From Ceratodon purpureus (lineage: Eukaryota; Streptophyta; Bryopsida; Pseudoditrichales; Ditrichaceae): a stretch of 64,000 bases of DNA. This document shows, in pieces, positions 171 to 23,222 of this stretch. The stretch is from contig CM026426.1 of the NCBI GenBank assembly GCA_014871385.1, positions 44,688,484 through 44,752,483 of the forward strand, read 5' to 3'. Position numbers and translations under genes: made by a program. Numbering within the stretch: position 1 is the stretch's first letter; every line of letters begins with the position of its first letter. A model generated the notes under the pieces. That model did no database searches. It saw nothing but the letters and a program-made list of their open reading frames with translations, and had not been told where the DNA came from.

Positions 171-630
171 TGTTAATCGGAGATTCCCCAATCTCCCTTT
201 TCCTTAGCTCCCCCTAGCTCCTTTTCAGATTTCATCCTTACCTTAGACAGTCATCCAGTCGACTGGATGAACTCTGTCACAATCGACTTGGATGAATTCT
301 GTGACCAGCCGACTGGTTGAACTCTGTCACCAGCCGACTGGATGACTTCCGCCAGTTCAGGAGGTTTAAGAGGCAAGGTTTAGGGTTTCCTGTAATCATT
401 CTACACTAGAGCAGGTAGAGTCAGAGAGGTCTGAGAGCTGTTAGGAACTGCTGTACTATGGTTTTGGGGCTGTTTTGACCCATTTTATGCAGTTTTGACC
501 TCTTTTTGCACTTGTATTGTACATTTCTAGGAACCCATGAGTGTTTGGAGCACTTAGTTTAGTTGGGTTTTGTTGGATTTTGATGGGATTGTGAAGGCTA
601 GGGTTTAGTTGGTAAATCCTCCCTTTAACA
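171..630 (+). repeat. 5' LTR of the outer element (460 bp)
   Basis: It is bounded by TG and CA and matches 42296-42703 almost throughout. It holds a tandem repeat of about 25 bp built on GACTGGATGAACTCTGTCAC at roughly 252-350. There are about four units here and two in the 3' copy, which accounts for nearly all of the 52-bp length difference. Confidence 0.92.
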
Positions 631-1772
631 TTGGCGACCATGCTTTAGTTTGTACCATGTGATCTACTGCTTGTTGTAGGCTATTCCACACGCTTTAGAG
701 GTCCTGAAGTACTGAAATCGGGTCTGCAGAGGTGCAGCAGTTACTGTCGAGAGTCTAGAACAAGCAGGAGATTTGTATTGAGATGCTGTCACTGAAATTC
801 CGAGGTGCTGAACAGATACTGGTTGGTTAGGTGTAGTCATTGTAGTGGTAGATTGGGTCGGCAGGTGCTGCCCAGCCACTGGCAAGGGTCCATGAACCAA
901 TCGAGAGGTGATCTGTTGCAGTAGAGGGGGACAGTGAAGCAAAGAAGATTCAAGTATTTCACGGGTGGAAACACTTGTGCACCGACAGATGCAGTCTAGC
1001 ACGTGTCCAGGGAGCAGTAGCAGCGGATCGGTTCTATTCCAGGCTGGTGGGCGCAGGTGCTGTGAAGATTGAAGGACCAGGTGTTCAGGCAGTCGACCCG
1101 TTTGAACAGAGGGCCGTTCACCACTCGAAAAAGGGGATAGAGCGGCTGTACGTCGGATCTGAAGTCCAACTGTACAAGGGGTGAAAGGTAAGTAACCCGT
1201 AATTCTAGCATTTTGAAATTCAAAATCTCAGATCCAAAAATTTAGGATCTTGAAGTTTGAAATTTGAATTGTGGACCTCGATTTGAGACCTCGATCGGCT
1301 GTGCGAATTTCGATTTGGGACCTCAGTCGACTGTCAGACTTGGTTTCGGGATGTCAGCTGAGACTTCGCATCTGTACTTGGAGGGGGCAAAACGAGTCAA
1401 ATCTGACTGAAAACAGCTGCTAAGAATATTTGGCAGAAGGGGAATTTCTGTCCAAATTAATCACTGCTACAACCATTGGACTGAACTCCTACAGATCAGT
1501 GCAGTAAAAAAAGGGGATAGAAGTAGCTAAAACTGTAATGCAGTGAATTGCTGTGATCTATTTCTACTTTCTGGGAAAAATGCTTGTTGTTACTTACCCA
1601 CGTATACAGCCGACTTGCAGTTAGTGCTAAATTGGCAGGTATAAGGAAAGGGTAGCTGACTGACTCGAGCCGGGAGGAAGCCAAGCAGAGCTGACCAGAC
1701 CGATAGCAGAGCAGCAGCTGCAGACATTAGGAAGGAAAAACAGTCGACTGGAGCAGTCCAGCAGTCACATCC
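631..1772 (+). other. Leader of the outer element, no ORF of note
   Basis: This lies between the 5' LTR and the first gag ATG. Right after the LTR, TGGCGACC (632-639) may be a short primer-binding site; the first 7 bases fit the complement of a tRNA-Arg 3' end, but the match is too short to be firm. Two exact copies of the element's polypurine tract, AAAAAGGGGATA, occur at 1128-1139 and 1508-1519. Confidence 0.55.
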
Positions 1773-1912
1773 ATGGAGGACGGTGACCAGACTGACTTGA
1801 GAGAGAGACAAGCCATCGAGCACTACAGACGCTACATGCAACGGGAGGAGCGGACAACAGAGCCGACTCTAGCAGAAGGACAGGGCCGACTTAGTTCGCA
1901 GGGCAGTGCGGC
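1773..1912 (+). CDS. N-terminal piece of outer gag-frame ORF, cut by the hAT
   Basis: The ATG at 1773 opens an acidic/basic, charged N-terminus. The hAT enters after codon positions 1905-1912 (AGTGCGGC). The same 8 bases recur at 18320-18327 and the frame resumes in phase at 18328, so the reading frame here is one continuous gag-side frame apart from the insertion. No known domain is visible in this piece. Confidence 0.75.
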
Positions 1913-2035
1913 CAGGGTTGTTCAAATAGACGTCCGACCCGGCTCCGGACATCAAGACGTCCGACCCGGACGTCCCCCGTCCCGGACGTCCCCCGTCCCG
2001 GACGTGGCGTCCCCGACGCTCAAGACTTACATCGT
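1913..2035. repeat. Left TIR and subterminal repeat zone of the hAT
   Basis: After the 9-bp TIR come several copies of GACGTCC or its close variants, such as GACGTCCGACCCGG and GTCCCGGACGTCCCC, at about 1929-2000. The right end (18262-18319) carries the same motif family next to its TIR. Subterminal short repeats of this kind are the usual hAT transposase binding sites; that role here is inferred. Confidence 0.8.
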
Positions 2036-2059
2036 GGTAATAATTTTGCGACTCCGGAG

Positions 2060-2501
2060 GGGTAAAAACATTCCCCAGCCGTCCGATCGGCCGATCCCGC
2101 CACCACGCCCCATCTCGGCTGTCCATTCGCGGGGACGGCCGCGGGGACGGCTGCGGAGACGGCCGCGGGGTCGTTGGGGACGGCCGTACGTCGATCCGAC
2201 GGTCAAGATGCGGCCGTGCTGGCACATCGCGGGCCGTCAGATGTAGGCGGCCCACCTGGGCCGTCGGATCCCACGGCCGTCGCCGTGGCCGACCGCGTGG
2301 AGACGCGGCCGACCGCGGAGACGGCCGCGTCGGTCGGACGGCCACGCGGCGCCGACGCCCGACGCGGCCGTCCGATCGGACAGCCGCGCCTTCGGGCGGA
2401 GTCGCGCCCGATCGGACGGCCGCGGGGGCGTAGATCGGACGGCCGTGGGGACGGCCGTGTGGACGGCCGCGAGGTCGGCTTCCCCTATATGAGGGGAAGC
2501 C
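2060..2501 (+). promoter_or_regulatory. GGCCGTC array and palindromic TATA upstream of the kinase
   Basis: A very GC-rich block dense in GGCCGTC/GACGGCC runs to about 2480. Immediately after it, 10-bp perfect inverted arms (2477-2486 GGCTTCCCCT and 2492-2501 AGGGGAAGCC) enclose a TATAT core. It lies about 280 nt before the kinase ATG. The following leader contains a run of 18 G (2618-2635) flanked by GGGGTCC and TTTCGAATTT, a pattern repeated before the RING gene. The promoter role is inferred from position and TATA-like sequence. Confidence 0.55.
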
Positions 2502-2768
2502 GCCTCTTCATTTTTTACCTTTTTTCTCCCTTTTTGAGTGAGGCTGATTGCTACTGGTGGGGGATTTGATCCTTCTCCGTTGGTCGTTCTCACCGGGAGG
2601 AAAGGGGTCCTTCATTTGGGGGGGGGGGGGGGGGGAGAATTTTCGAATTTTTAAACGGTTTTTTTCAAAACCCTTTGGATTTGTATTGCTCTTATTAATC
2701 ATTGTGGGAATTGAGGGTTTCTTTGGAGTTGCAGTTACGATTTCTTGGAGCCTTGAAGGCTTTCCACG

Positions 2769-4245
2769 ATGCCGAAGAACAAGAAGCAGAAGAATGTGGG
2801 GGAATGGGCGAACAAATTTGATGACATGCCGAGCTTACGTTGCAGGGATTATATTGTGGCATTCATCGTGGAATTTTACCAGGAGAATACCCTTATTTCA
2901 TTGAATAGTCGTTACGTTCGGTATGAGGAAGATGGGCCCAAGAAATTCAAGTCAGAGATGGAGACAAAGATTAGGGATCGTTTGACGGATCCGTGCTGGC
3001 ATTCGGATACACAGAAGCCCGGTTACGATCATTTCGTGTCACAGCGTGCACACGATGCGTTATGGAATGCTCGTGAGGTTATTGCTAAGTATGCAAAGGC
3101 GCAAAGGGGGGGAGTCCAGGCCTTCAAGGATACTATTGCAAAGGCAGATTGCTTCACGAGACTAATGGCGCCCCTAAGCTCAAGAAAGCATCGACGGGCG
3201 TCTATTACTTGGTGGAATTCTCCGATTGGGATGGAGACGGCGGCTGACTTACGTAAACGGCATTTGACTATCTTGGCAGACTTTGCAATTTTCTATTACT
3301 TGGACAAGGAAGTCCAGAGAGGTGGTTATGCTACCATACGTAGGGTTCGTATCGAGGGAAACCCGGAAATCCCACCATTCTGGGAGTTTGCTGAGAAACG
3401 GCCGCTCAATTGGTCTATGAGGCCGGATTTGGCACGTGTGGACCACAACAATGAATCTCTTGCGATAAGGATTCCCCATCCTGGTGTCATCCGCTTCATG
3501 GCCATTCATCAGCTGGAACATGTGGGATTCATGTTCTGGTGGAACGGTGGGACCCTTCGAGCCATGCTACAGAGAGACAACGAGGCCCCGGGTGACCTCC
3601 CCCATCGACTATATCTTCAGAGAGAATGCAGAGGACAGTCCGATTCTAGGGAAGCGTCTCCAACTTTTCCGAAGTAAGCGTACAGAGCTTGCTTGGGCAT
3701 TGTGTAACATCATAGATGCTGTGCACAAATACGGTTACCTCCACAATGACTTGTCACCGGACAACATCCTACTTCACTTTCCGGAAGATGAGTCCAAGAT
3801 CTACATCGGGGTTTGTGATTGGGGCTTGATGACGAAGACACTAGAGAACAGAAGGTCGCCTTGGGTTTTTGAGAGTGTCCATCAGAAGGAGGAGACTATG
3901 AGGAGGCGATACTGGGTGGATCCTCGCGTGGTATACGTACACAAGGAAAACCAAGATATTCAAATCATTTCAGATTTGACGGTTGCATCGGAGGATTTCG
4001 CAGCTGCGAAGATTGCGGCGAAGATCAACAGGGGCAACATGTGCACGGCATACCACGAAGCGGAGCCAGTAGAAACACGCCATTTCCAGAATATCGGAGA
4101 ACTCGCAATGGTTTTCGAAGGTTACCTTGAGAGAGTTTGCCAAAACAACAGAGGAACGATTGGTGGACTCGGACATCTTATTAACCGTTTCAGAGATACA
4201 CACAATTGGCCCACTCCCATCGAGCACTACCGCGTGGGTTACTGA
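2769..4245 (+). CDS. Divergent protein kinase, cargo of the hAT (one frameshift)
   Basis: Two overlapping frames (2769-3677 and 3484-4245) form one protein of about 490 residues if a 1-nt shift near 3590-3615, beside a C5 run, is allowed. The N-terminal ~150 residues are unrecognised. The N-lobe shows a glycine-rich stretch (VQRGGYATIRRVRI) and a hinge-like WWNGGTLRAML. The second frame has the catalytic loop HNDLSPDNILL near residue 325, with the HxD and N residues, and DWG in place of DFG near residue 350, so catalysis is plausible. I cannot assign a kinase family. It faces the convergent low-complexity gene. The frameshift could be real decay or an assembly indel in the C run. Confidence 0.7.
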
Positions 4246-5187
4246 TATGGAGATACATATCTACCTTTCCGTATTCCTATAAAAGCATAATGTTTTTTTT
4301 GTTACCGGACGGCGGGCATAGCTCTCAGTAGTGAATAGTTATATTTAGACTCTATATTATGATGAGATGATGGAATCTCAATTTTTGTACACCGGTCAAT
4401 ATTTTGTTTATAAAGTTTACTTGCATTTGGTTCAAATATGGTCTCTGTACTGAGATTGGTCTATTTCTACCCCTTGTATTATGAGGAAAACGGATTGGCT
4501 CCACACATCTAGCTAAAAGTCGATACTCTCAATTCTAATTATGAAAATGATGCGATATGTGAATTGTAACCGTTATGCTTTGTAAATTTTACTCTTAGAA
4601 ATATTGGCAAGCGTATACTGAAGTTCTTTTCGTGAAGACGAAAGCGTAAGGGCCGCAAAACATGATTGCTCATAATCCCCGGTACAAACAAATACCTTAG
4701 ATATAAATATGCATCCCTCAAAAAATATCATTCACGATATTCTTATTAATCTAGCCAAAAAAATAATTGAAAATTATTTTGCATACTTGTCTTGAGATTC
4801 ATTATATTCTAGTGCTCGTAAGTCGTAACCCATGTCAATAGGAAGTTGTCATTTTTAAAATAGTGATATTGATAGTAATGTGCACTTAGAATACGGCTAC
4901 AAGAATATTAAAAAGGTAAATTCCTTTCAAATGTGAAGACAACTACAATATAAAAGACAACACAACTACACTCTAAAACACTAATTATATCTATTCTACT
5001 TGCAAAATGTGGCACGTGCCAATTTTCTTGAGTCCGTACATTTTAAACCTCCATCTACAAAACTGCAAACTACGTACATACTATGCTTGCATCTTTTACT
5101 TTCCGTTGTAAATTTGTAATATGCGATGTCCATGTTAAAGACTTGGTACGCTGCGTTGCTGTAGAAAGTACTACCATGCACCCCATT
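4246..5187. other. AT-rich spacer between convergent cargo genes
   Basis: Nothing convincing is seen. It probably holds the 3' ends of the kinase and of the opposing gene. The ORFs here are short and look random. Confidence 0.5.
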
Positions 5188-6801
5188 CTAATAGTCTCCC
5201 CTCCACCCTAATCCATTGTAGTCATATGGATGATAATAGTTCCCATCATTGGGAAGTTCGCTTGGACCTCCCCGATGGTACGTTTCTTGTGGCCCGTGCC
5301 TTGCAGAATTTGTGGAGGCTCTCAAAAGTCTCTCTCTCTCCTCCATCAATCTTCGATTATCCCGTCTAAGGTGAAACGCATGATTCTCCATGTGTAGTAC
5401 GTAATTTTGCCTTGTTCGCTCCAACTCTAGTTCTTCCTCAAAATAGCTATCTCTTACAACTCGACCGGGAGGGTATCCAAAAGGAGGAGGTGGTACTCTG
5501 TCTTCGGGATGAAGTACGTTGGGGTTGTCCCCGCTATTGTGATCAGTACCGTCGGTGTGATAACCTAGAGGTGGAGGAAATATTCCAGGCGGAGTCCGCG
5601 AAGATGATCTGTAATCATCTTCTGCAAATAGGGCAGATGGGGTACCATGACCACCATATCCGCGGTATGGAGGGGGAGTTGCGTAATCATCACGTCCCAG
5701 TCTCTGCGTATCTTCTTTGCGATCTGGGGAATAACCGTGAGGTACCTCTCTCGGAGGTGTTCGATGGCGCGGACTAGCACTCCTTGGAAGACTCGGTATT
5801 TTCGACCAGCCGTCGTCATAGTTACTAAAGTATCTTGATCCCGTTGCATAATCTGGCCACGGTTGTCCCCCATAGGGTCCATACGCACCATCCGCAAAGT
5901 CAAAGGGTAAATCAGCTCCTTCCGGTTCCCCGTGGCCATAGCCTTGTTCGTGGGGTCCCATGTCCTGACGATCTAGCGAACAATGTCCCCCGTGGGCAGA
6001 GCTTTGTCCATACTCCTCATGGTTGGTACGCGATGACTCTCTGCCACGATGCCCTCTGCGATTCCTGGGATTTTCGTTTGAGCGACGCCCTCGATAGTTG
6101 TCTTCATCATCATAGCTTAAACGACGTCTCTCCTGTTCCTCATCATTATATTCGATGGCTAGAGTTTGTATTCCTGCATCTTGTGCCGGTGGACTCCGAC
6201 GGTTTGAAATATGTAATGGGGGACAAGCGCTATGGCCACTCCAGTCTGTTACAAGATCCATGCTGTCTCTGTTCATTCTATCTGTCCTCAGGCCCGAGAC
6301 TGTGGTCCAGTCAACCCTCTTGTGTAAGACTATCTCCGCCCACACCATTGCCATATTCAAATACAACATGATATGAGGTCGGGAGTTCTGGATTCGTGCT
6401 GCTCGAAAAACCTCGTTGTATCGAATTTTTAAATGATTACTTTCACAATTGTCGATCCTGATCTCTCCCCGTGTTGCCTATTTCTCCGCAGCCTCGGTAC
6501 GTAGATGTACTGGGATCAACTTCATGAGGTGCTTCATCTTGACATATTCCTTGCAAGTTACCATCCGCCATGGTGATGGTTCCCCCTCCCATCCAATCTC
6601 TACTACACAATCAGGGTCATTCGTAGCGTTTGGATCCAAGGGGTGTTTCCTTTTAGGAGTGGAGGGTCCTCCGCGGTCGTTACAAGGCATGGCGAAAGTC
6701 CGGTAAGCGAGTACCTCTGAATACCGTGTATCGAAGCAACCTTGTAACAATGGCTGTAACTTCTCCCCACCGTATAAAAGTTGATTTAATCTCGTATACA
6801 T
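5188..6801 (-). pseudogene. Low-complexity/coiled-coil cargo protein, interrupted by an in-frame TAG
   Basis: Frames 6801-6478 and 6369-5188 are in the same phase, separated only by a TAG at 6478-6480 and open on both sides. The N-terminal domain aligns with residues ~30-130 of the RING-H2 cargo protein: GWE, then TCKEYVKMKH..KL against FKECKKYVKMYH..KL, a later H...R..EVF block against H...R.YEVW, and MVWAEIVLHKRVDW against MVYAELILKRKISW. The homology spans the stop, so the TAG interrupts one protein. The rest is R/G/P/Y-rich with dense charged repeats, ending in a short coiled coil (about 50 residues from the C-terminus) and a Tyr/Gly-rich tail. A further open stretch in the same frame upstream (7050-6802) is hydrophobic and ends in TAG just before the ATG. 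Function unknown. Confidence 0.65.
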
Positions 6802-7025
6802 CTAGTGCATAAGGACTAAAACAAAACCCAGAACTCCAACCAAAAAACCGTACGTATGAAGCACTATATTGTTGGTTTCATAATAACCAACATACGGTGC
6901 TGACAACCCTAAACACAATCCCACGATAACCCGTGGGGAAGTAGAAAAAGCTTGGAGGAACGCAACTGAGCTGAAGTAAATCCACCACATATAGCACGAG
7001 CACCCAAGTGGAGAAAAAGGAAGGA

Positions 7026-7440
7026 GGGCCAGCCTTTTATGCTGGCCCAAACCCCTAGACAGCCAGTTAGGTCAAACGACGGCCCCCCTACGGCAGTTGG
7101 ATCTTGGGGAATGGAGAATCCAATGGCCGTAACTGGTCCGTCGCGGGACTAGCCGCGGCCGTCTAGGATCGTGCCCGCGACCGGTCGTGCGGCCGCGACC
7201 GCTCCCCAAAGGGTGCGTCGGTGGACCGCCGCCCCGCGGTCGGGACGGCCGACTACATGGACGGCCGTGCTGCACCCCGCGGTCGGAGGCTGCAGCGGCG
7301 TGGTCGGCCACGGCCGACCCCGTGTGGACGGATGTCGTCCGGAGCCGTAGGATCTTCTCGTCGGAGAAGATCCGACGGCCGTGGGCGACGGCCGTCCACG
7401 CGGGGTCGGCCGTGGCCGTCCCCGGGGACGGCCAAGGGGG
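7026..7440 (-). promoter_or_regulatory. GGCCGTC array with palindromic TATA upstream of the low-complexity gene
   Basis: On the minus strand a GGCCGTC-rich block (7440 to ~7080) is followed by an ATAAAAG box (7034-7040) enclosed by perfect 8-bp arms, GGGCCAGC at 7026-7033 and GCTGGCCC at 7041-7048. The ATG at 6801 is about 235 nt further on. On the plus-strand side, 7440-7640 is pyrimidine-rich and resembles the leader after the other arrays, so the block may once have fired both ways. Role inferred. Confidence 0.5.
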
Positions 7441-7444
7441 GGGG

Positions 7445-10185
7445 GAGGGTCGAAGGAACTCCCCTCCCCTTGTGTTTTCTCTCCTCTCCTCCCCCCTCTC
7501 CTCCCCTACTCTCCCCCCTCCTTCTTGTCCCAAACAATCCCACTTGGGATTGTTTGGACAGCATATCTCCTAGAAATGGAAAATTCAGACATATCCCGGA
7601 TATTGTGGGGAATGTCCTGAAGATCCTGTGATCGGGGAGGTGGGGTCGACGTTTGAAATTGGGATCCAATGAACTATGTGATATTTTGGTTCTTTGGGGG
7701 TGGATAACCCCCTAGGATCTACAAATAATGTGAACACGTTTATGAAGAAGAATATATATCCTATTGAATGGAAAGAACCGTAAACATTGTGGGTATACTA
7801 AAACAGTTTTTACCAATTGTCATTCAAAGAAACAAAGTTACTCATGTTTTAGCATACGGTAATGAGTTAACATTTTATACTAACGAATCAAAAGAGTAAA
7901 TGTCAACAACGAGATGATAAGAGGAACATCGCGGAGAGAATGCAGTAGAAGTAATTCAACGCATAAATTGATGTACACACTTGGTTTTTCATGCGGTGCA
8001 CCTTACGTTTAAATGGTTAAGAGATTTGCATTTATATTTCACCGGTTTACGGTTTCATAAATCTCTTAGAAATATAGATCCAATTTCTTCTCGAATAGTG
8101 GTATACAATGAAAATATCTATATAGATTCTTTGACTCTAATTTTTAATGGAATGATTTACCCCAGTTTTATTTCTTTAATTTTACATACTCTCGTTCTTT
8201 AGTATTATGGTAGAATCAAAAATAAAAACATAAATAGTAGTTTAGATTATGAGAGAAATTGGAGATAATAATAAATTAAAAATAACCAAAACAAACATTC
8301 AATTCTCTTGGGATTATGCAATTCATGGGAGGAATAAAACTCAAATCATTGTTTTCATAACAAATGGTCCAATTCTAATTTCTCATGCCTGGTTTAGAGT
8401 TATATGAAATATAAAAACTCTCCTTGCACTTTAATGTCTTTTATTTTACACACTTCCATACCGTAGTACTGTGTTATCATTAAAAAAAAAAAAAATCACT
8501 AGCTCACATTATGAGATGAGGAAGGGATAATAGTTAAAAACAAAACAAAAACAGAAAACATTCAATCGTCATTGAATAATGCCAAGCTGTGAACGACTAA
8601 AATTGAAATCATTGTTTTTATAAACAATTCTAGTTTCCCACGCCCAGAATTGAGTTGTACCTTGTAACTTATATGAAATAAAATAAATAAATTAGGTAAC
8701 ACATTTTCATTATATACTATAGGAATATATGTTTATTCATATACACTTTAACGTAAATATAAATATGGAATTGGATTCCAACTTGTACAATGTATAGTAT
8801 ATACGTACAAAAGTAATCACTTACTAATGACACAATGAGAAAATTAAACAAACACGATAATTCATAGAGACACATAGACTATAGTGTACCAAGGAAAAAT
8901 TAAAAAGTCACGACGTGAAATACTTGGAGCTACAAGTACGGAAATAAAATTATTACACAAAAACGTATATTGACGGGACATAATTCTAGAAATATATATA
9001 TTATTGGAATACTAAAAATACTGATGAAAGATGTTTGGTGGGGTGGTATTGTTTCTAAATAGTAAGTAATTAAATTAATGAACAACACAAAGAATAAGAA
9101 GGTTGAGGACGGATATGAATATTAAAACTATAACGACGACGGGTGTAATATTAAGAAATAACGTATCGATACACTTAGGGAAAGCTGTGAAGTAGAAGTA
9201 TATTCATAAGTAAACAAATGAGTGAACCATCGAAATAATAGACGAAAAAAGAATAGTTTGAGAGGGAAAGTATCGAAATTATAATTATTATAAGAAATAG
9301 AAGTCGGCCATGATGTAGTGATATATGGAGAGTTCAAAACGTATATATGAAAGAGGGGTACAGTAGTCAATAAAAACTAAAGCAGTAGGGTACATCTAGT
9401 AGAATATAATTCAAAACTAAAGCAGTAGGGTAGAATTAGTAAAATGGTGGAATAGTGGTCGAATTAGTAAATTATACTTTAACATGGGTCATGGAGGAAA
9501 TAAATCGAAATACGAACGTTCGAAACGATATGAAAGGAAGAAATTCACGAAATGACATTTATGGAGCTTTGAGGGTTGGAGTTGTAGATTAGACAAATTA
9601 GACATTAAAAAAAGGGCATAAACTAGGGGGGAATAAACATAGAGGAAAATAAAGAAGAAGTAAATGAAAACCATATTCGAAAGTGGAAATTGTATAGAGG
9701 GAGGAACGTTAAAAGTACATAAAGAGATGGTAACTCGAATTAAATTGAGAATATGAAGCCGTTTAATGAAAGTATAATAGAAGTACTTATGTATTTAAAA
9801 AAACAAAAATTCAAAGCGGAGAATAAGAAGACGGAGAACTATTAAGATTACAATTTCTGAAACAAGTTTAGATGAGTTCGATTTCTGCAAGGAACTTCTG
9901 GAGTGCGATGGTAGACAACATGAAATGCGTACGATAGAAACAACAGAAATAATGATTCGAATAAATGACACATACATTAACTTCGGTGGAGCGTACGGAA
10001 TAATGACTCGTTGAAGAATTTAGATGCTTTGCATACCATGATGTATTTTAATTCATGTTTACATTAACTGCTGTTCTCATTTTAATTGGTGAAAGAAATT
10101 AACGGGTTTAGTGTAATATGTGGTCGGAAGATGTAGCATTATATGTGTTTATCATTTGTATTTAAAAAAAAGGGGGGGGAGGGAA
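7445..10185. other. AT-rich centre of the hAT, no gene recognised
   Basis: From about 7640 to 10140 the composition drops to strongly AT-rich, with simple A/T runs and only short ORFs (80 codons or fewer) of no recognisable content. It separates the two outward-facing array/promoter modules. It may be a decayed gene or a spacer; the sequence does not decide. Confidence 0.5.
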
Positions 10186-10189
10186 ATTT

Positions 10190-10842
10190 CCCGCGGCCAC
10201 GACGGCCTCGTCCCCACGGTCGGGGGCCGTCTCCACGGCCGTGGGCCGTCTCCGTGAGGGGCCGTCCGCGGGGACGGCCCTTCGACCGCGGCCGTGATTG
10301 AACGGCCGTCGCCTTGGAGACGGCCCCGATCAGACGGCCGCGGGCTGTCGCCGACGGGGCCGTCCCCGCGGCCGTCTCCAAGGCCGTCTACGTGGCCGTC
10401 CCCGCGGCCTTCCCAGCGCGGTCGTCCGCCATTGGACGGCGACGGCCGCGGGGACGGCCGCGATTGGAGGGCCGCAAGCCGCCCCCTCGGGGGCCGTCTC
10501 CAAGGCCGTCCCCTCGGCGACGGCCTTCATCGGACGGCCGTCGCCGAGGAGACGGCCCGATCGGACGGCCGCGGAGGCACGGGCCTCCGCGGCCGTCACC
10601 GTGGCCCCCGACCCGACGGCCCCCAACGGCCGTCGTCAGGTTCGGGACGACGGCCCTAGGCTTGGGGGGACGGCCGTAGGGTTGGAGGCCGTCGCCATAT
10701 ATGGCGACGGCCGTCCCCCACGTCCTCACTTCACTCTCCTCAATAGTCCCTCTCCTATTGCTACAGTTTCCCAATTCACTTGGGAGCTTGTTGGTATGTG
10801 GAGGTGAGGAGATGGGGGTCCCTTTTTATTGTGGGGGGGGGG
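10190..10842 (+). promoter_or_regulatory. GGCCGTC array with palindromic TATA upstream of the RING gene
   Basis: This is about 500 bp of dense GGCCGTC/GACGGCC. It ends in a perfect 26-bp palindrome at 10687-10712 whose centre is CATATATG. A leader follows with GGGGTCC, a run of 10 G (10833-10842) and TTTTTGAATTT, in the same order as ahead of the kinase. The ATG at 10947 is about 250 nt from the TATA core. The long ORFs reported in all frames here are by-products of GC-rich repeats. Confidence 0.55.
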
Positions 10843-10946
10843 AGTTTTTGAATTTTCTGTATTCGTTATTTTGTAAACCGTCATTTATCAACTCCTTGTT
10901 TTCTTTAAAACAAAACCATTACATTTTTGTTTAAAAGGAGGTTACT

Positions 10947-13900
10947 ATGGCGGATCCGGAACATGATGAGATTGGAGGAACCGGGAAGAGGAACAGGCCG
11001 AAGGGAACGTGCCACAACTTTTCTTGGGAGATCCTAGACAACAAAAACATTGTAGCAGAAGAAGGCTGGGAATCTGTAGGGGAGATTTTCTGGACTTTCA
11101 AGGAGTGCAAGAAGTATGTGAAGATGTATCACATTGACAAGTTGTGGCCCCAAGAAGAACACAAGATGAACACATGGACTTTTACTTGCAAGCCCTGGTC
11201 ATGCATGGATGACCATTTCTTGCATCGGGCATATGAAGTCTGGACTACTATGTTTGGGCAACGGAAGCCCAGCAAAGGCCATTTCAATTATACCATTTGC
11301 AGTATGGTATATGCGGAGCTAATATTGAAGCGGAAGATTAGCTGGTGTACGTACCCCACTACGAAAGACAGGCCGTTGCAAATTGGATGGATGGTAAAAG
11401 ACATTCCGGATTTATATCTGATCGATCCTTTGCAAGCAAAGAAGGTTGTAGCGGAGTTCCGAAAGCGGCAGTGGCCACATCTAAAGAGCTTTCCGAAGAA
11501 TGAAGTAAAAAAAGTACAGAATGAAACTCCGCATCGTCCAGAGGAAAAGAAGCCCGTTGCCATTGCCAATGTGATCGCTACGATGTTCCCCGTTGCCACA
11601 GAAACTAATGTCCCTACTATTCCTAGAGCAGACCTGGGAATCACGGTGAAATCTTCCAACGATACAAAGGGCAAGGCAGCCGTAGATGAGGTGGAAGTGG
11701 AGGTGGACAATGACTGTTCAACACATCTTACGGCTGCGGAAGCCGGATGCTCCAACCCTCATTCAGTGGATGATGGTCCAAGTTCCTTGGCAATAGTTCA
11801 AGTGCGTACCGAAGAGGATAGCACAAAGGATGCAGTTCATTCCATTTCGGAGATTATGGAGCTGGTGAAGTCGATGCCAAACAACGAATCATTGAAGGAG
11901 TTACTAGATTTTAGCATCAAATTGACGGAGGTGTCCTCTGATGAACAGCGTGGGGGCTTAGAGAATACCACGGAGGGAGACGCTCCAGGAAAAGCCACGG
12001 AGGAAGTGCAACAAATTCTTAATGTGTTGAAGATTGCACACACCCTGAAGGAAGGGGCTTCCGTATTAGGCGCTATGGCACCAGATCTCATAAATATGGC
12101 TCATGCATTTGGAAGTATCATTCCGGGCATGATACAGGGTGCCCTTGGCTTTGAGACTTTGGCATCTTCCATTAAGCCTCTTCTGGAAGACCGTGTGAAA
12201 TTAGGCGAAGAGAACGTGGCCCTGAGTAAGGATTTAATGGAGGCAACGCAACTAATCAAGAGTTTGACAAAAAGGTTGGACAAAGTGAAGATGAATTTTT
12301 ATGAACAATTGGAAGAGTGCAAAATCTACCACCCGGTAGATAAGGAGAAAAACAAAACAAAAGAAGTGAAGCCTACGGTGAAGAAGGAAGTGGTGAAGGT
12401 GGAAGGAAAGGATCGTATCATTGAAGTACTGAGCGATGGTGAGGATTCCGATGACCTTGGCCTTTCTAAATTTTCAAATAAAAGTGGAGATGGGGCCACA
12501 CAAGGGATGGCGTCTCAGAAGTCTAAAATGACATCTGGTCCAGTTCCATTGGACATTGGCTCTAGCCAAGCATCACCAAGACATGAGGATAGAGGAAAAG
12601 GGCCAATGGATGATTCAAAAGAATTAGACATTCTTTTACGGGATTTGGAGGTGGCTAGAAGGGAAAGAGATGAGGCCTGTACGGAAGTGGAAAGGCTGAA
12701 GACCACCATACAGATGGTAGATGATACACCATCTTCTATAAGGGCATTATCATGGCTTGGTTGGGTCCACAAACTACGAGATAAGGAGACAATAGTCTCT
12801 AGAGCACAACAGGATATGAAGAAATGTGCAATTACTTCCATGGATGTCGAAGAAGCTATCCAATCATCTTTACAGAAGTATAACGAGGCAGCAGCCAAGG
12901 GCGGCGAGGATGCTACAAAAATCACGATATGGCGCGATGTAGGAGAAATGATGGAGCGCACATTACATAGTTCCAAAAATAAAGAAGGGGTCATTGACTG
13001 GGCGCTAGAGGTCGAGGAGGGGTGGATGCCGTACGATGTACTATCATCTCATTTGGATGAATCGAAACGTGTGGTTATCCATACCCGCAAACCGTCGGAG
13101 GAATATTCGAAGGAAACGTGTCCCATCTGTCAACAATATTTTGGGCCGGAAGGGGCCTTTGAGATGGGAAATTGTAATCACAAGTTCCACATAACCTGCA
13201 TCGCGAAGGCTGCTTTAAACAACAAACAGTGTGTTATGTGTCGCTCCCCAATTAGTTCACGTTTTTACGAGATGCTGGGACTACAACACGTGATGCCGCC
13301 TGGGCATGAGTTTGATCGGTGGAATTTACCACTAGACCAACTACCTAAGAAAGAGCTGAATTATTATGAATGGGGCAAATCTGTGGCTTGGAACCCGGAG
13401 ACAATGACTCACCAACTATCTACGGCTAACGATGCCGGAATGGACGATCTTTCATGGATGACACACGACTATGAGGTGGAGATGAGGGCACGTGAAATTC
13501 CGGATGCCAAGGACCGAGAATTTTTTTGTAGGAACTTCGGTGGACATTGGAGTATACATGGCAATCGCTTCTTCCGGTTTCCAAAACCGGAAGTTGTGGT
13601 AGATGCCGACGGTAAGAGAAGAGGAGTAGAACGGGACTATGGCCAACTTGATGAGTACAAGATGTATGACAGAACCCCAGTTGGGAGGGCACTTGTATTG
13701 GCCAAACTAGAAGAAGCCATTCAGCATCGTCGCACTTTTACAGAGGAATCCTTCAAATATTCGGACCTAGACTACTGGGTGATCATTAAGAAGTCTGACG
13801 ATGCTCTTCAGAAAATAGTTTGCGACTGGAGAAGGGCACTTCGTGCGGAGGATAATTCCTCTCGTTGGTCACGCAATAGGATTGAGAAGATTGTGCAAGA

Positions 13901-14117
13901 AACAGTAGCCAAGATTGAGAAGGCAAAGGAGTTGTGGAACGGGAAGAATTCCAAGAAGCGCAATCGAGACAACCCTTATGAAGATGATCCCGAATGGGGG
14001 GAAGATAATCGTCGTTTTTTGGATCGCGTGGAAGAAGAATATCGATCGGGGGGTACGATTACACATCCAAGCCAGCGACGCCAAACTCGGAGGTCAAATG
14101 CAAACAATGGACGTTGA
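10947..14117 (+). CDS. RING-H2 protein of 1056 residues, intact cargo of the hAT
   Basis: This is a single uninterrupted frame. Residues ~30-130 form the domain shared with the opposing low-complexity gene (GWE...CKKYVKM...MVYAELILKRKISW). Predicted coiled coils lie near residues 413-460 and 555-590. A RING-H2 finger lies near residues 724-767: CPIC, then CNHKFHITC, then CVMC, giving C-x2-C, C-x-H-x2-H-x2-C and C-x2-C. The C-terminal ~250 residues are charged, with a basic patch (KKRNRD) that may be nuclear. RING-H2 domains normally act as E3 ubiquitin ligases with an E2 partner; substrates are unknown. It is the only large gene of the hAT without a lesion. It may regulate transposase or host factors, but that is speculation. 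Confidence 0.8.
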   Translation: MADPEHDEIGGTGKRNRPKGTCHNFSWEILDNKNIVAEEGWESVGEIFWTFKECKKYVKMYHIDKLWPQEEHKMNTWTFTCKPWSCMDDHFLHRAYEVWTTMFGQRKPSKGHFNYTICSMVYAELILKRKISWCTYPTTKDRPLQIGWMVKDIPDLYLIDPLQAKKVVAEFRKRQWPHLKSFPKNEVKKVQNETPHRPEEKKPVAIANVIATMFPVATETNVPTIPRADLGITVKSSNDTKGKAAVDEVEVEVDNDCSTHLTAAEAGCSNPHSVDDGPSSLAIVQVRTEEDSTKDAVHSISEIMELVKSMPNNESLKELLDFSIKLTEVSSDEQRGGLENTTEGDAPGKATEEVQQILNVLKIAHTLKEGASVLGAMAPDLINMAHAFGSIIPGMIQGALGFETLASSIKPLLEDRVKLGEENVALSKDLMEATQLIKSLTKRLDKVKMNFYEQLEECKIYHPVDKEKNKTKEVKPTVKKEVVKVEGKDRIIEVLSDGEDSDDLGLSKFSNKSGDGATQGMASQKSKMTSGPVPLDIGSSQASPRHEDRGKGPMDDSKELDILLRDLEVARRERDEACTEVERLKTTIQMVDDTPSSIRALSWLGWVHKLRDKETIVSRAQQDMKKCAITSMDVEEAIQSSLQKYNEAAAKGGEDATKITIWRDVGEMMERTLHSSKNKEGVIDWALEVEEGWMPYDVLSSHLDESKRVVIHTRKPSEEYSKETCPICQQYFGPEGAFEMGNCNHKFHITCIAKAALNNKQCVMCRSPISSRFYEMLGLQHVMPPGHEFDRWNLPLDQLPKKELNYYEWGKSVAWNPETMTHQLSTANDAGMDDLSWMTHDYEVEMRAREIPDAKDREFFCRNFGGHWSIHGNRFFRFPKPEVVVDADGKRRGVERDYGQLDEYKMYDRTPVGRALVLAKLEEAIQHRRTFTEESFKYSDLDYWVIIKKSDDALQKIVCDWRRALRAEDNSSRWSRNRIEKIVQETVAKIEKAKELWNGKNSKKRNRDNPYEDDPEWGEDNRRFLDRVEEEYRSGGTITHPSQRRQTRRSNANNGR

Positions 14118-14577
14118 GTACAGTATTTACGTTGGACATGGTACCCGCATTACTACGGTTAATGTGACAATACACTGGGTGATAGTCGTATTTAGAGCAG
14201 TATATATATATATTGGTTGGGGAGCCGGGTGTATGGACTTTACTCTACCTCTATATGTACTTGCAAAAATTACCTCTGGTTTTAATACAATTTCATTTAT
14301 GTTTTCTCGGAGTTGCAATTGTGTTGAAAGAATTGTTAGTACTTAGATGCATCGAACTTCATATGTAGATTTTGTACATTCATTACAAGAAAGAAATTGC
14401 GAGAAGTACAATCAAAGTAAAAATAAGTACACAACGTGGAGGACAATATTGAAGAGGCAAGCACCACCGCTTAAATGAGATATAATATGATAATGGTTTC
14501 TAGAAATGGACATTCATAAAAGAGTGGCATTCTAGGGTGGTGCACTGGAAATGCCGCCTTCTAACTATCGTGCCCAA
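14118..14577. other. 3' spacer between the convergent RING and transposase genes
   Basis: This is AT-rich with no ORF of interest. It presumably holds both 3' ends. Nothing else is seen. Confidence 0.5.
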
Positions 14578-17500
14578 TCAGGCCACATAATCGCTGTCGT
14601 CCTTCACTTCGGCCCCATTAGGACCGGAAGAATCGTATTCGTCATCGCCATCGCTCTTGCGTACCTTCTTCATCCTCGCCTTAGTCTTCTTCTTTGACTC
14701 GAATGGGTCCAGGAATTTCTTTGGGCTATTCGGGTCATCCAAAGGAGTTTTTGGCTTCCCAGGATTGAAAGCCAACACCTTCTGAGTCTTGTCTACAGCC
14801 TTTCGCTTGGACGTGGCTCTAGCAAGGGGTTTCTCAGGAAATATGTCCGGTTTTCCCAAAGCCAACTTCGGCCCAAAGAGATGCCCAATTGGAAGTCCGT
14901 CATCAGTAGAGAGGATGCCCGGGTCCGCTTGTCGGGTTCGGACCAATCTCTTCCTACATTTCTCCGCTACTTCAGCAGCCTTAGCATCTGCCTTCATTTT
15001 TTTAGACAACTCAACCAACCTCGTGGACGATTCGAACCCACCAACTTGGACCCTAGTCTTTGCAGTTCCAAACAATGTCCGAGATGCACTCGATACGGGT
15101 ACGGGCACATCCTCCTTTGTAGTGGGTGGAACCATATCGTCCTTCAGGCGGTTGAAGTTTGGAGAAACAACCTTAGAAGTATCAAGGGTGAGGTCTTCCT
15201 CTTTCTTTGGTACGACCAAATTCACGGTAGTATGAGAGGATCCTCCCCGCAGAATCTTATCACTGTTTAATAAACCGTCTCCATTCAAAAAAGAGGCAAG
15301 ATGAATCGTATCCTCCTCGTTGGTACCTTCTTCTTCGACATCATCATACTCGAAAGCACGCTCCATCGGCGCAGGAGAACAACGGGATTTTTCTTTTGGA
15401 GACACCTCGAGGTCGTCGACTGGGGCCTCAATGGCGGGGTCAATTGATAGATCGTCGAAGGGTAGATCAACATCAGACTCACTAGAGTAGTCAACGTCCT
15501 CGGTTTCCACGGCCTTCGGATCCTCCTTCCCCTCCAACTCCCCGTAGAACCTGCCTAAGGCACTCAACTTGGACTGGGAAATTATCTTGGAATTTGTATA
15601 CACAAACACGAGGTCATTAGCCCTTTCCGGAAGTAAACGGTTCTGCTTCCTGTCGTGGACAAAGGAGTAGCTACTCCAATTCCGCTCGCATGAAGAAGAA
15701 GACAGGGGCTGAGCTAAAATCCTTTTTGCAATTGGGGAAATGAATTTACCAGCGGATCCGTATATATCCCACCAACCTGAAGGCGGCAGTTGTGACTTAG
15801 AGGAGTCACGTACATCACAAAACGGAGGATAAGCTTCACGAAATGCAAAGAACTCTTCTATGACCACTTCCTTCAGTGTCGGAGGAGCCATCGACAACAA
15901 GACCTCCTTCGCCGATGCCATCGCATCTGTATCATTGTGAAGGTCCTCATCGTCAATAAGATAAGGGTTTAGAAGCGCAGCAGCACACTGTAAGGGTGAT
16001 TTAATCATGGCTTTACGCTCATAAAATGAGTCCTCGCAGAAATCAGCATTGTCAGAGTCTAATTTGAAGGGCTCATGGCGTAAAGAGAGAACATGCTTCT
16101 CAAGGTTGCGGAAATTGATGTAGGCTTTACCCAATGCCGATTCCTTTGCATCAAACTCTCGTAGGGCATATACAACGGGACTCGTCATCCACTTGAAGTT
16201 TGCACATTTCTCCCAGAAAACGTCATCCAAGACAACTCTCTTAACATCGCGTGAGATCTTCGCTTTGTCACAGGCAGATAAGGTCTTCTTCGTTTCGTAG
16301 TTTCTCCAGTCAGGATCCACAACGCTCTGCTCCAATGCTCCTCGAACCTTCAATAGACCCGTAATCATAATGTAGTGCGATGCAAACCTAGTCTGACCAG
16401 GCATCAGCAAGCTAAGTTTTGCCTCGTGCTTTCGAAATACCGAGAGTGGCATTTGCCTTATCTTTATGAACTTAACCAAGTTCTTAGCCCGATCTAGGAG
16501 CTCCTTGACCCACTTCATCTTACTCCAGTCCTCCAACAAAAGGTCCATCGGATGGGCAGCACATCCTTGGACAAATATGGATGGATAGAGTGCTTGGACC
16601 AACTTTCCGGCATTAAGCATCACCGGAGCATTATCGTAGCATACTTGAATGATGTTCTGTTCTCCAACTTGTTGGATAAACTTCTCAATGACGGTCGCTA
16701 CGAAAACGGCATCCTTCTCTTTCCCACTCGTGTCAACGGCTCCCAAGAATAACTCACCAGCAGGAGATACCACCATTGCGTTTATTAAAGGGCGACTGCT
16801 TACAGAAGTCCACCCATCCAGGGCCAACGTTCCCCCGTACTTCCTAACACTTGAAAAAATCCTATCATTCAAGGAAGTCTCCAAATCAGTCGTTGCTTGG
16901 GCTAGTAAATTTGTTCGGAGATGGTGGAAAGATGGAGGTGTGTATGATCTCTTCATGTTGGACGTCTTCAACACCGCGCCACGTTAAACGAGATACTGTT
17001 CTCGTAAAAACATGTGGCCCATGCTTTGTCGCATTCCCGCCTCTGAGTCTCTTCAAAGCCCTCTTGAAGGGTAGATTGCCTCTTTGCCTTCAAAGAAGGA
17101 AACGGCCTTCTACCTTCCCCCGGAAGAGTGGAAATGAAAGGTACACCCTCACCAAATAAAACGGGTTCATTCTTCGGAGTTGATACCCGGGATCCAGCAC
17201 ATGAGTCCACATCCATGGGAGTGTTCACTCTCGGGGATATATTGCCATGAGTCACGAGGGAAGTACTCTGCTTTAACATGAATATTCTGGAATCATTGGG
17301 GAATTTGCCACCGCAATTCTTGAACAAGGACAGTATAGCGGGTGACAAATTAGTGCAACGACCTACTCCACAAGTCCGTAGCCCTAGAACTTTGTCATAG
17401 CCCAAATGACTGAGCATCCGCTCGATCCTCTTTGCGAAAGTGTTCTTGCATAGCATACATTGAACCATCTCAGTCTTCTTCTTCTCCGCATCGATCATAT

Positions 17501-17660
17501 GGACTTCGGTATACCATGGGGAGTAACTTTTAGACGCCATTGGTGCACTTGATGGATCGCCCGGAAAAACTTCAAAAAATCGGGGTACCACGTCCTCAAG
17601 AGAACTAGAGCCTCCGAGAAGCTCCAATTCAACACACTTCTGAACGCCACCGTTCACCAT
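14578..17660 (-). CDS. hAT transposase (BED, DUF659, hAT dimerisation), one frameshift
   Basis: The first ATG is at 17660; the frame runs to a TGA at 16968-16970. The second frame is open from 16974 to 14578. Both belong to one protein of about 1030 residues: the first ends in FYENSISFNVARC and the second begins with YTPPSFHHLR, consecutive segments in plant hAT transposases. Visible parts are a BED-type zinc finger (VQCMLC ... HLGYDK ... GVGRC), the catalytic core with LDGWTSV and YDNAPV aspartates, CAAHPMDLLLEDW, and the C-terminal CERNWSSYSFVHDRKQNRL dimerisation block. A long acidic then Lys-rich tail (about 300 residues) is unusual. A TTTATA box (minus TATAAA) lies at 17746-17751, 86 nt before the ATG. 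The 1-nt shift near 16975 probably inactivates this copy. Confidence 0.9.
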
Positions 17661-17739
17661 GCAACAGATACACACGTATATTAGTGCAACTAGAAGCACA
17701 TGGAGTACAATTCAGAAGTGTAATGGCAACTTTCAGGAG

Positions 17740-18145
17740 GGGTCCTTTATACTCATCCCATGATATGCCAAGGGGAAAGCCCTAAAAATCAAGGGAGGAC
17801 GGCCGTCGAGGCCGTAAGTCAAGAGAGGCGCCGTCCGATCATGGATTGTCATGGCCGTCGAAGCGGCCGTCGCCGGGGACGGCCCCTCCACCGCGGCGAC
17901 GGCAAAGGGCCGTCGCCGGGGACGGCCCCCCCCACCGCGGCGACGGCAAGGGGCCGTCGCTGGGGACGGCCCCCCCCTCCGCGGCGACGGCAAGGGGCCG
18001 TCGCCGGGGACGGCCCCCCCCCCACCGCGGCGACGGCAAGGGGCCGTCGCCGGGGACGGCCCCCCCCTCCGCGGCGACGGCAAGGGGCCGTCGCTGGGGA
18101 TGGCCCCTTCCCGACGCGGCCGACGGCCCCCCCCGCTCCGCGGCG
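17740..18145 (-). promoter_or_regulatory. GGCCGTC array with TATA box upstream of the transposase
   Basis: Six or so tandem units of about 43-45 bp (17864-18100), each containing GCCGTCGCCGGGGACGGCC-like sequence and GCGGCGACGGC, form the array. A minus-strand TATAAA at 17751-17746 follows. Unlike the three cargo promoters, this TATA box is not enclosed in a clear palindrome. Confidence 0.55.
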
Positions 18146-18239
18146 ACGGCCGCACCCTCCCCTGCAACCCCACCCCCGCGTAGAAGGTGTGGTTTCACCC
18201 TGAGGTGATACCTATGCGGGTGATTTTTTTTTTCTAAGT

Positions 18240-18319
18240 CACAAGACATCCTCTGGCGCTGGCGGACGTCCGCAGACGTCCCCACGTCCCGAGCGTCCCG
18301 GACAACCGTGACAACCCTG
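18240..18319. repeat. Right subterminal repeats and TIR of the hAT
   Basis: GGACGTCC, GACGTCC and ACGTCCC motifs (18266-18300) precede ACAACCCTG at 18311-18319. A second ACAACC at 18302 gives an imperfect internal repeat of the TIR core. Confidence 0.8.
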
Positions 18320-18327
18320 AGTGCGGC

Positions 18328-20758
18328 TAAAGAGGTCGGGGAGCTTATCAACATGGACGTGGAAAACGACCTGTCATCATCCGATGGGAGGACGAAGGAG
18401 AGCAGATATGGAGGAGAGACACAATTCGAAAAAGGGGATAGGCTGAGTCGACAGCCAGATCCGACTAGCGTTCCCTGGAGGTACCAGGATATGAAGCGAA
18501 CGGCGTCATTCAGGAGGGACTTCTCTACTGCTGTAGACGACTACAACACCTTCCGTGAAGAGCGACGACAGACGCAGGATGTTTTTGCAGAGCCGACCCA
18601 GTGGCCCAGTAAAGTCACTCGCAGAGTCGACTTGGAAACCGAGCTGACTCAACTGCGCAGCCGACCTGTATCTCCAGTGCGCCTGCCAAAAACTCCAGAG
18701 ACACTGCCAGCTGCATTCCAGAACCTGAAGCAGAAGCTGGAGGAAACGAAGAGTCGATCAGCCCAAGAACAGGGTCTTGCACACCCGAGAGAAGGTGGCC
18801 TGGGTAAGAACGTGCATTTCCTGGATGAGTTCCGGCTGCAGTCAGAATGAGAGCAGGAAGAGGAGGACCGGAAGGCAATTGAAGCATTATGAAGTGACCT
18901 GTTAGCCAAGCGGGAACAGGCCCGACAGCACCACCCGACACACTCTCACAGCCGACCCGACTCGGGCAAATACCTCCAGCAACTGGAAGCCTTGCAGCAT
19001 ACTGCCCCTTTGGGTGTAGCGTCGTTACACCACTGGCATACAGAGCCACAATGGCCGCCAGAGCAGCATCGTACTTCACTGGAGGTGGAGTTCAACCGAC
19101 GGGTACAGGAGGCAGCTCAACAGTTAGCAGCTCAGCAACTGGCAGCACAACAGTCGGCAGCACAACAGCTTGCTGCCCAGCAAAAGGAACAAGAACGGCT
19201 AGAACGAGAGAAGCAGGAACTAGCACAGCTGCAGGACTTGTGGGAAGAGCAGCAAAGGTGGCAAGAGCACGCGTAGACTGGGGGGAATGCTGCACGACCC
19301 CCGTATTTATTCAGTTCAGCAGCAGAGGTGACGGTGGATAAGACTGTACCAGGACCCCTTCCGGCCGTGACTTCCTCGACCGCCCATCCACTTCCAGGAT
19401 ACGTGGATCACCTTACCGGCGACGTGTACCAATCTGCGCAGCCGACCCAGTCAGCCGGGTATCCTGGAAGACTGGCAGAACCGACTTTTGCGGATCCTAA
19501 CCATGCAGCTACCCACGTGGGGCGGTCTACAGTTGTCCCACCGTTTGCCGCCCCGGTTGGCTACAGTACTACCGCCATTCCCGGAGGATCACACACTGCC
19601 CCAGCTGGTTCTCACTTTCCAGTACATTATCTAGCGCCATCGGTAGCACTCCCTCGTGCATTACCCCCGGTTCGCACAACCGACTTCACCTCAGCACCAC
19701 CCCGACCGCCGGTCAGTGCGCAAAAGAAGCAGTTATCGTACAGGGCCTACAAGGAGGGAAACGACCCTGACGCTCATCTCAGGTATTTCGACGAATGTGC
19801 CTGGTTTAATGGTGAGACTGATGAGACAGTAATCATTACTCTGTTTGGGACGACCCTGGTCGACAAAGCCCAGCGCTGGTTTGATGACTGGCTGGATCAT
19901 TATCCTTACTGCACTTGGGAGGAGGCGAAGGAAGCGTTCAAGCTACATTATCGGGAGCAGGATTCTGATGAGCAGGTTTATATGACGCTGCGAACATTCA
20001 AGCAGGGTGAAGGGGAGAAGGTTCAGGATTATTACGAACGGTTAATGAAGTTGGTCAAATGTCTGCAGACTGATGTGGGCAAAGGGTTCAAACTCACCTA
20101 CTTCAGAGCAGGGTTACTTGACTATCTGAAGGTGACAACCTGTGGGTCTACAGCTAACACCCTGACTGAGTTAAAGAAGTTAGCCCGACGCTGTGAGACC
20201 AACTGCACCGACGCCTCGGGTAAGAAGCTGTATTTTCAAGCTAAGAAGACGGAGTTGACTACCAGTCGAGGAGCCGCTACCTCAGCCCAGACAGAAGGAG
20301 TCGAGACTGTAAACCGCCGGTTTTGCACTTGTTGTAAGAAATTTGGGCATGAAGACATTAACTGTTTTGTCAACCCGGCTAACCTCAACAATAGGTTACC
20401 CAGGTCTGAAGGGAAGCCTACCGTCGGAGTCCATGAAGTGTCGACTACACAGCCGACCAGTGGCTCTGGGAGGCCTGTCACCAGCCGACCAGGAGGGTAT
20501 CAAAATGGAGGATCGGGCACGATCGATGGCTGTTTCCTTTGCCTAGGAACTGATCATCAGATGCGTAATTGTCATTTACGTTTGAAGTTTCAGCAGTTAT
20601 TAGCCGCTGAAAAACAGAGAACTAACGTTGTCGGTGTCAATAGTGTGGAATTGCAGGAGATCGATGACCAGGAGGTGGCCACGATATTGACCAGAGCAGC
20701 TCGAGAACGAGCTGGACTGCCCCTGGAGGACAAGGAGGTGAAGGAGCCGGAGCCCTGA
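18328..20758 (+). pseudogene. Outer element gag, with in-frame stops
   Basis: This continues in phase from 1912. Stops TGA (18848-18850), TGA (18890-18892) and TAG (19274-19276) interrupt an otherwise open frame. The middle is a Gln/Ala-rich coiled coil with repeated LAAQQ (about 19120-19190). From 19328 comes a Retrotrans_gag domain (landmarks YKEGNDPDAHLRYFDE, LFGTTLVDKAQRWFDDWL, FKQGEGEKVQDYYERL). Two CCHC zinc knuckles of the form C-x2-C-x4-H-x4-C follow near 20320 and 20530. Gag packages RNA in the virus-like particle. The stops are compatible with C-to-T decay. Confidence 0.85.
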
Positions 20759-23070: not shown

Positions 23071-23222
23071 GCGAGGGTGTTAGGGTTTGGAGTTCCTTTT
23101 TGCGAACTGGGAGTAGAGAGTGAAAGAGCGGTGAGGTGTCTTTGACTTTTCCGATTCACCGGCAGTTGGATTGCCGGGTTTCTTGCTGTCGGATCGTAGA
23201 GGGAGAGAAGTGAGGAGTAGAG

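Follow-up and report, generated by a model that had tools for sequence, protein, structure and literature searches.

DNA transposons of the hAT superfamily, such as Ac, Tam3, Hermes and Tol2, are recognised by 8-bp target-site duplications (TSDs), by a transposase with a hAT dimerisation domain and by short termini, which in hAT elements are usually of the CAGGG type. In the available part of PMC6710886, hAT elements are typically ~5 kb long, with a range reaching 7,144 bp; hATs of ~9.5 kb with a captured H3 are also reported there. Here we describe an element from a 64-kb stretch of the genome of the moss Ceratodon purpureus (the window, i.e. all of the DNA analysed). It has these three features in common with the superfamily but differs from it in its length of 16.3-16.8 kb and its four genes. 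Copies at different sites showed a mobile four-gene family with intact members. On balance, we favour the reading that this is a large hAT family whose full-length members combine a transposase with a protein kinase, a ubiquitin-ligase-like RING-H2 protein and a third protein, with kinase and RING protein acting in trans and the four genes under joint control.

Among the systems compared with it, the VANDALs of Arabidopsis are Mutator-like and not hAT elements, and the authors of Lanisha work on Ceratodon. In anti-silencing of the VANC type, a protein encoded by the element leads to a loss of DNA methylation. For VANDALs, the available part of PMC5735166 describes an element-encoded protein, VANC, whose targets are short motifs in rapidly changing tandem arrays of the element and which has an anti-silencing effect. 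The arrays of the moss element also vary in number between copies and may be analogous. Lanisha (Maumus, McDaniel and Carey, Repbase Reports 2020, as cited in the available part of PMC12730594) is likewise a cut-and-paste DNA transposon, but its transposase resembles EnSpm and is not of hAT type. According to the same part of PMC12730594, TET+ IS3EU of rust fungi is a DNA transposon with an alpha-kinase gene and TET, in which transposase and kinase are oppositely oriented. IS3EU resembles the moss element in retaining a kinase gene together with another enzyme, but it belongs to another superfamily, is fungal, carries an alpha-kinase and has 6-bp duplications and terminal inverted repeats (TIRs) of >30 bp, as against 8-bp duplications and a 9-bp TIR in the moss element; no RING or ubiquitin gene is mentioned in that part of the article (PMC12730594). 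TET+ hAT7 of Puccinia also combines a hAT transposase with an accessory enzyme gene, but there the duplications are 7 bp long and a dioxygenase stands in place of kinase and RING protein (PMC12730594, same part). Neither hAT nor kinase is dealt with in the available part of PMC13317346. Among the listed titles and abstract openings of open-licence PMC articles (Repbase being outside this scope), no description was found of a hAT with a kinase, a RING protein and a partner having the RING-protein domain. Accessory enzymes on DNA transposons are already known.

Ends, target site and gene order of the window copy

The window element spans positions 1913-18319 (16,407 bp). The octamer AGTGCGGC occurred only twice in the 64-kb window, as left (1905..1912) and right (18320..18327) TSD, each time abutting an element end. 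The termini CAGGGTTGT (1913..1921, + strand) and ACAACCCTG (18311..18319, - strand) form short TIRs of the CAGGG type, whose perfect match is limited to 9 bp. An earlier note on this DNA had described an exact 8-bp duplication and inverted termini enclosing a hAT transposase, and both the ends and the transposase were confirmed.

Inside the ends, the genes follow one another as kinase (forward), third gene (reverse), RING-H2 gene (forward) and transposase gene (reverse), i.e. as two convergent pairs. The three additional long genes claimed by the earlier note, and their arrangement, were thus found as described, but in the window copy only the RING gene (10947..14117, + strand, 1056 amino acids) is intact. 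The kinase gene (2769..4245, + strand; 491 amino acids when intact) is shifted out of frame by a 1-nt insertion near 3603, and the transposase gene (14578..17540, - strand; 994 amino acids from this ATG when intact) is broken by a 22-nt deletion near 16980, each as compared with one intact copy. The third gene (5188..6801, - strand; 500 amino acids from the ATG of intact copies) contains an in-frame TAG at 6478-6480. A reading of the three broken frames as intron-containing was ruled out by the intact frames in other copies, which are single-exon for all four genes.

When the window element and one TSD copy were excised from the sequence, the flanks joined into a single open frame of 234 codons. 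Its left part lies at 1731..1912 and its right part resumes at 18328..18850 (both + strand), ~430 bp upstream of an open reading frame (ORF; 19277-20758) matching Retrotrans_gag (Pfam). Because the interrupted ORF adjoins this gag ORF, the target of the insertion was probably a Ty3-type retrotransposon. A second copy of the interrupted ORF was sought in the 64-kb window and was not found.

The window copy lies at 44.69 Mb on contig C6 (110,524,308 bp) of the C. purpureus assembly (362,488,568 bp in 151 contigs). A C. purpureus protein 96% identical to the window kinase bears the name KC19_VG055000; from the presumed meaning of "VG" in this name we infer that C6 is the V sex chromosome.

Further copies in the Ceratodon genome

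The search of the moss's own genome scored the best candidates only, so all counts are minimum values rather than a census. Scored places numbered 40 for the left end, 40 for the right end, 45 for the transposase, 87 for the kinase, 98 for the third gene and 44 for the RING gene. Stops were absent from 53/87 kinase, 53/98 third, 34/44 RING and 27/45 transposase places. A convergent third gene lay within 4 kb of 62 of the 87 scored kinases, at a distance of 957 bp in 25 cases. Kinase and transposase were paired at 5-25 kb 28 times, and 26 of these pairs were 9-11.5 kb apart. Among the 44 scored RING genes, a scored transposase accompanied 29, a third gene 35, a kinase 24 and all three 17.

Ten copies were fetched for closer analysis: the first 10 in sorted order of the 26 kinase-transposase pairs, selected for that pairing and not for ends. 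Both termini were present in all ten, and the copies measured 16,281-16,783 bp. Their 8-bp duplications were all different; nine were exact and one had one mismatch, so that duplications of the hAT type flank the window copy and 10/10 fetched copies. The earlier note had proposed a search for copies with the same ends, the same gene order and different duplications, and this is what was obtained in the ten preselected copies. Three of the ten had all four frames intact; in one of these three, the transposase was intact from an inner ATG and a TAG was present in the stretch upstream. With the window included, the kinase was intact in 8/11 copies, the third gene in 7/11, the RING gene in 9/11 and the transposase in 8/11. 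Identity among the ten was 97.6-99.8%, and the two copies that were 99.8% identical occupied different sites. The window copy was 96.3-96.6% identical to the ten and is older than they are.

A copy of a diverged subfamily (C6:98,336,500-98,353,800) showed the same gene order and was partly decayed, its right end lying beyond the covered stretch. Protein identity to this copy was 87% for the kinase, 84-87% for the main blocks of the RING protein, 88-93% for the transposase and 75-86% for the third protein.

Empty sites and short derivatives

Mobility was further indicated by one copy with four intact frames (L013-L014, C11:13,972,425-13,989,731), which is inserted in the interior repeat of its own family's short derivatives. 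The joined flanks of this copy (94 + 300 bases) gave 15 alignments across the junction in 11 fetched loci. Nine of them, at nine loci, showed a single TSD and a gap-free junction, i.e. an empty site; the other six had a substitution or a one-base gap there. These empty sites are paralogous, not allelic, and the exact cut point is ambiguous because the TSD is mostly a T run. Empty sites had been named in the earlier note as a check on mobility, and for this copy they were found. Because 10/10 copies have the same ends and gene order and an empty site exists, both ends can be assigned to a single element, and the additional genes do not represent a one-off capture.

Five short derivatives with family ends were observed (L031-L035, at C6:53.87 Mb, C1:10.17 Mb, C5:18.88 Mb, C13:6.57 Mb and C9:3.24 Mb, respectively), measuring 4.5-4.9 kb where both ends were found. 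L031 lacks the genes but retains the AT-rich core and the ends. Another interior of ~3.2 kb, with inverted arms of ~0.6-1.1 kb, is common to L032-L035. An exact 8-bp duplication was present in four of the five, and the ends of L033 were not found by pattern search. These short derivatives were probably moved in trans.

The encoded proteins

The transposase matched DUF659 (PF04937, E 9e-36) and Dimer_Tnp_hAT (PF05699, E 5e-9) in Pfam, and its profile matched Hermes chains in the PDB (E 2e-5). Residues D56, D117 and E433 (numbered in the window frame), which we take to be the DDE catalytic triad, were conserved in 20 (D56), 19 (D117) and 19 (E433) of the 21 rows aligned; at both D columns, one row is gapped.

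For the kinase, the C-terminal frame matched PF00069 at E 1e-5 with 25.5 bits, below the Pfam gathering score of 31.7. The first kinase relative scored 20.1 bits, and 30/31 relatives matched this family at E 0.01 or better. All 50 PDB matches listed for the kinase were protein kinases (best E 5e-8), and the structure predicted with 31 rows of relatives reached a predicted local distance difference test score (pLDDT) of 83.9. K210, E229, D327, N332 and D350, corresponding to the lysine, glutamate, catalytic aspartate, asparagine and metal-binding aspartate, were invariant in 31/31 rows. The HRD motif reads HND (His in 30/31 rows) and the DFG motif reads DWG (Gly in 29/31). A protein kinase fold is predicted for the family. 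One member, P0091, carries the label of a Bacilli metagenome-assembled genome; it probably stems from plant DNA that was binned with bacterial sequence.

The RING protein matched PF13639 (RING-H2) at E 2e-7, over the Pfam cut-off. All eight C3H2C3 zinc ligands, encoded at 13119-13241, were invariant in 16/16 rows. The closest PDB sequence was the Arkadia RING (E 3e-6), and the sequence matches also included RNF8, RNF4 and RING2 among other E3 ligases. The kinase and the RING ligase-like protein named in the earlier note were thus both recovered, the former by its predicted fold.

The third protein aligned to the N-terminus of the RING protein on either side of its window stop. When it was compared with a profile of nine RING N-termini, hhalign returned E 1.8e-16 over 127 columns. 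As judged by these alignments, the third and RING proteins have an N-terminal domain in common and are paralogous there.

Sequence constraint

Variants among the intact copies were set against the mutation spectrum seen in noncoding columns of the element; p values are uncorrected and variants were treated as independent. Relative to neutral, the ratio of nonsynonymous to synonymous variants (N/S) was 0.50 for the transposase (p 0.003), 0.58 for the RING gene (p 0.003) and 0.48 for the third gene (p 0.018). Uncorrected pairwise ratios of nonsynonymous to synonymous polymorphism (pN/pS) were 0.33-0.54 across the genes. For variants present in at least two copies, pN/pS was 0.12 for the transposase, 0.19 for the third gene and 0.45 for the RING gene. 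Comparison of the kinase with the diverged copy gave a ratio of nonsynonymous to synonymous divergence (dN/dS) of 0.53-0.54. Amino-acid change is reduced versus neutral in all four genes, in the kinase not significantly.

Repeat arrays upstream of the genes and subterminal clusters

Each of the four genes is preceded by a GC-rich island of GGCCGTC/GACGGCC motifs. As counted in the window, the island upstream of the kinase (2060..2480, + strand) contains 13 motifs, that of the third gene (7075..7500, - strand) 9, that of the RING gene (10190..10725, + strand) 29 and that of the transposase (17780..18170, - strand) 16. The window contains 70 such motifs in total: 67 fall within the four islands and 3 outside the element, whose remaining sequence has none. 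First-order Markov sequences of the same islands yielded a mean of 0.4-0.7 motifs and a maximum of 5. The four islands were present at the same places in 10/10 fetched copies, with varying numbers of motifs. The ratio of observed to expected CpG was 1.03-1.36 in the islands, 0.55 in the left flank and 0.76-0.90 in the genes. We read the island CpG content as permissive.

Within ~80 bp of each element end, GGACGTC/GACGTCC-like motifs form a left (1929..2005) and a right (18264..18289) subterminal cluster, which are candidate transposase-binding sites. An AT-rich core with 31% GC (7520..10180) separates the two inner islands. Some 1.1 kb of this core (8880-10030) is 65% purine on the + strand, and its longest listed frame has 101 codons.

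Relatives beyond the Ceratodon genome

Searches outside this genome yielded relatives in 15 RING, 53 transposase and 59 kinase clusters. Linkage there was judged by equal contig sizes alone, and repeated sizes, chromosome-sized contigs and rows without a contig were excluded. A RING and a transposase cluster had the contig sizes 7,321 and 8,444 in common, and a kinase and a transposase cluster the size 27,639; the proteins of these size-matched relatives were 47-76% identical to the window proteins. When sizes were jittered by up to 10%, at least two RING-transposase matches arose in 30 of 20,000 trials. For kinase and transposase, a match at any size arose in 2,639 of 20,000 trials and one of >20 kb in 13 of 20,000, the 20-kb limit having been set after the match was seen. 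Among kinase clusters whose longest contig exceeded 14 kb, 1/9 matched a transposase cluster. Scans of viral contigs, GTDB contigs and phage records yielded no confirmed relatives.

Flanking sequence in the window

Downstream of the element, two direct repeats of 3.65 kb, 99.9% identical to each other, surround gag-pol-like ORFs at 22699-36062. The repeats resemble very long long terminal repeats, and each contains an ORF of 734 amino acids. An inverted copy, 82% identical, is located at 53755-57435. Judging from the ORFs, the unit at 22699-36062 seems to sit in the pol region of the retrotransposon whose gag ORF adjoins the hAT insertion. An Rfam scan of window positions 1-20000 at gathering scores gave no match.

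Proposed function and alternative explanations

Because the accessory genes are intact in several copies, show reduced amino-acid change, have a GGCCGTC array upstream and include two that encode a common domain, they look like constitutive working parts of the element and not like accidental cargo. The cargo label used in the earlier note seems wrong, since several copies preserve the position and frame of the genes, which also show signs of constraint, carry a common upstream repeat and, in two cases, have a domain in common. The family would be autonomous: copies with an intact transposase exist, and the window copy is a broken member.

The transposase would bind the subterminal GGACGTC clusters and move the element by excision and integration. 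The four GGCCGTC arrays would allow the genes to be jointly controlled. A protein encoded by the element itself probably binds them, and the domain common to the RING and third proteins would be the leading candidate for this binding. The kinase and the RING protein would work in trans, and their most likely targets would be host factors for silencing or repair, or else the transposase; marking and ubiquitination of these would let the element escape silencing or time its own movement. As to substrates, silencing escape or control of the transposase would be preferred, with control of the cell cycle or of repair in second place. That the accessory genes form a self-regulation system, one of the options raised in the earlier note, is a hypothesis. 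A more far-reaching reading is tentative and less likely than not: the DNA transposon would carry a signalling-and-degradation module, in which kinase and RING ligase are co-regulated with the transposase via the common array, the domain that the ligase has in common with its partner protein directs it either to a shared target or to the element's DNA, and host silencing or repair factors are removed as a counter-defence.

Several observations weigh against a four-gene family whose accessory proteins work together. For the kinase, N/S relative to neutral was 0.60 at a non-significant p of 0.09, and pN/pS for variants in at least two copies was 0.88 (13 variants). The RING protein, compared with the diverged copy over 680 residues, gave a dN/dS of 0.70-0.76, and its structure model (pLDDT 41.5) was too poor for use. 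The N-terminal domain common to the RING and third proteins had no significant Pfam or PDB sequence match. Three of the 44 scored RING genes had no scored partner at all, although a missing partner may merely be unscored. Outside this genome, linkage rests on sizes only, with two RING-transposase, one kinase-transposase and no RING-kinase matches. The CpG contrast of the islands is modest, because the ratio also reaches 1.05 in the AT-rich core and is 0.84 across the remaining window. A scored kinase was located within 2.5 kb of only 8/40 scored left ends. Nine left-right end pairs were found on one strand within 60 kb; the span was 16.5 and 17.1 kb in two of them (one being the window copy), 4.3-4.9 kb in five and 35 and 48 kb in the remaining two. 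Because few left ends are near a kinase and five of nine end pairs span 4.3-4.9 kb, many places with family ends may be derivatives without the genes.

Such gene-less places would also be expected if the accessory genes were captured host genes, transduplicated cargo that merely hitch-hikes. Capture is known for hAT elements from histone H3-like sequences in Pseudocercospora (available part of PMC6710886), and the intact frames are all single-exon, as in retrocopies. The intact full-length frames in several copies, with their reduced amino-acid change, argue against it, as do the repeat common to all four upstream regions, the paralogy of two of the genes and the size-matched RING-transposase and kinase-transposase contigs of relatives outside the genome. 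Capture is hard to keep given the common arrays and intact copies, and we consider it improbable. An unlikely explanation, though less so than capture, is a composite origin, in which a kinase/third element and a RING/transposase element were nested or fused and now move together. Two convergent, island-flanked pairs around an AT-rich core would fit such an origin, and the N-terminal paralogy of the third and RING proteins could stem from a partial duplication. Each of the 10/10 copies, however, has a single pair of termini and a single duplication, and the arrangement recurs in the diverged subfamily copy; such a fusion may still account for a remote origin.

The accessory genes could instead serve the host, domesticated, e.g., for a function on the sex chromosome, and be spread by the element. 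C6, with ~30% of the assembly, holds 53/87 scored kinase places, which would suit such a role. Stops are already present in 34/87 scored kinases, and stop-free kinases, as counted in top-hit lists and not a census, are as common elsewhere (29) as on C6 (24); host service is, in our view, very improbable and the least credible of the explanations considered. More serious, if doubtful, is the idea that the accessory genes act in replication timing or post-excision repair and not in silencing escape, with kinase and E3 ligase adjusting the cell cycle or repair in such a way that copy number rises through excision. Kinase/E3 pairs often control the cell cycle and DNA repair, and RNF8, RNF4 and RING2 are among the sequence matches of the RING protein; RING domains match one another broadly, however, and the best match is Arkadia. 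We therefore retain the large hAT family with constitutive accessory genes as the preferred reading.

Significance

C. purpureus can be cultured in the laboratory and genetically modified. Because intact copies, a pair of 99.8% identity and a tractable moss are at hand, the benefit of a kinase and an E3-like protein to a large transposon is directly testable. If the proposed reading is true, transposon accessory systems would extend to post-translational control, by phosphorylation and ubiquitination, in a hAT of a land plant; under the tentative module reading, a eukaryotic cut-and-paste element would encode a counter-defence by these two modifications.

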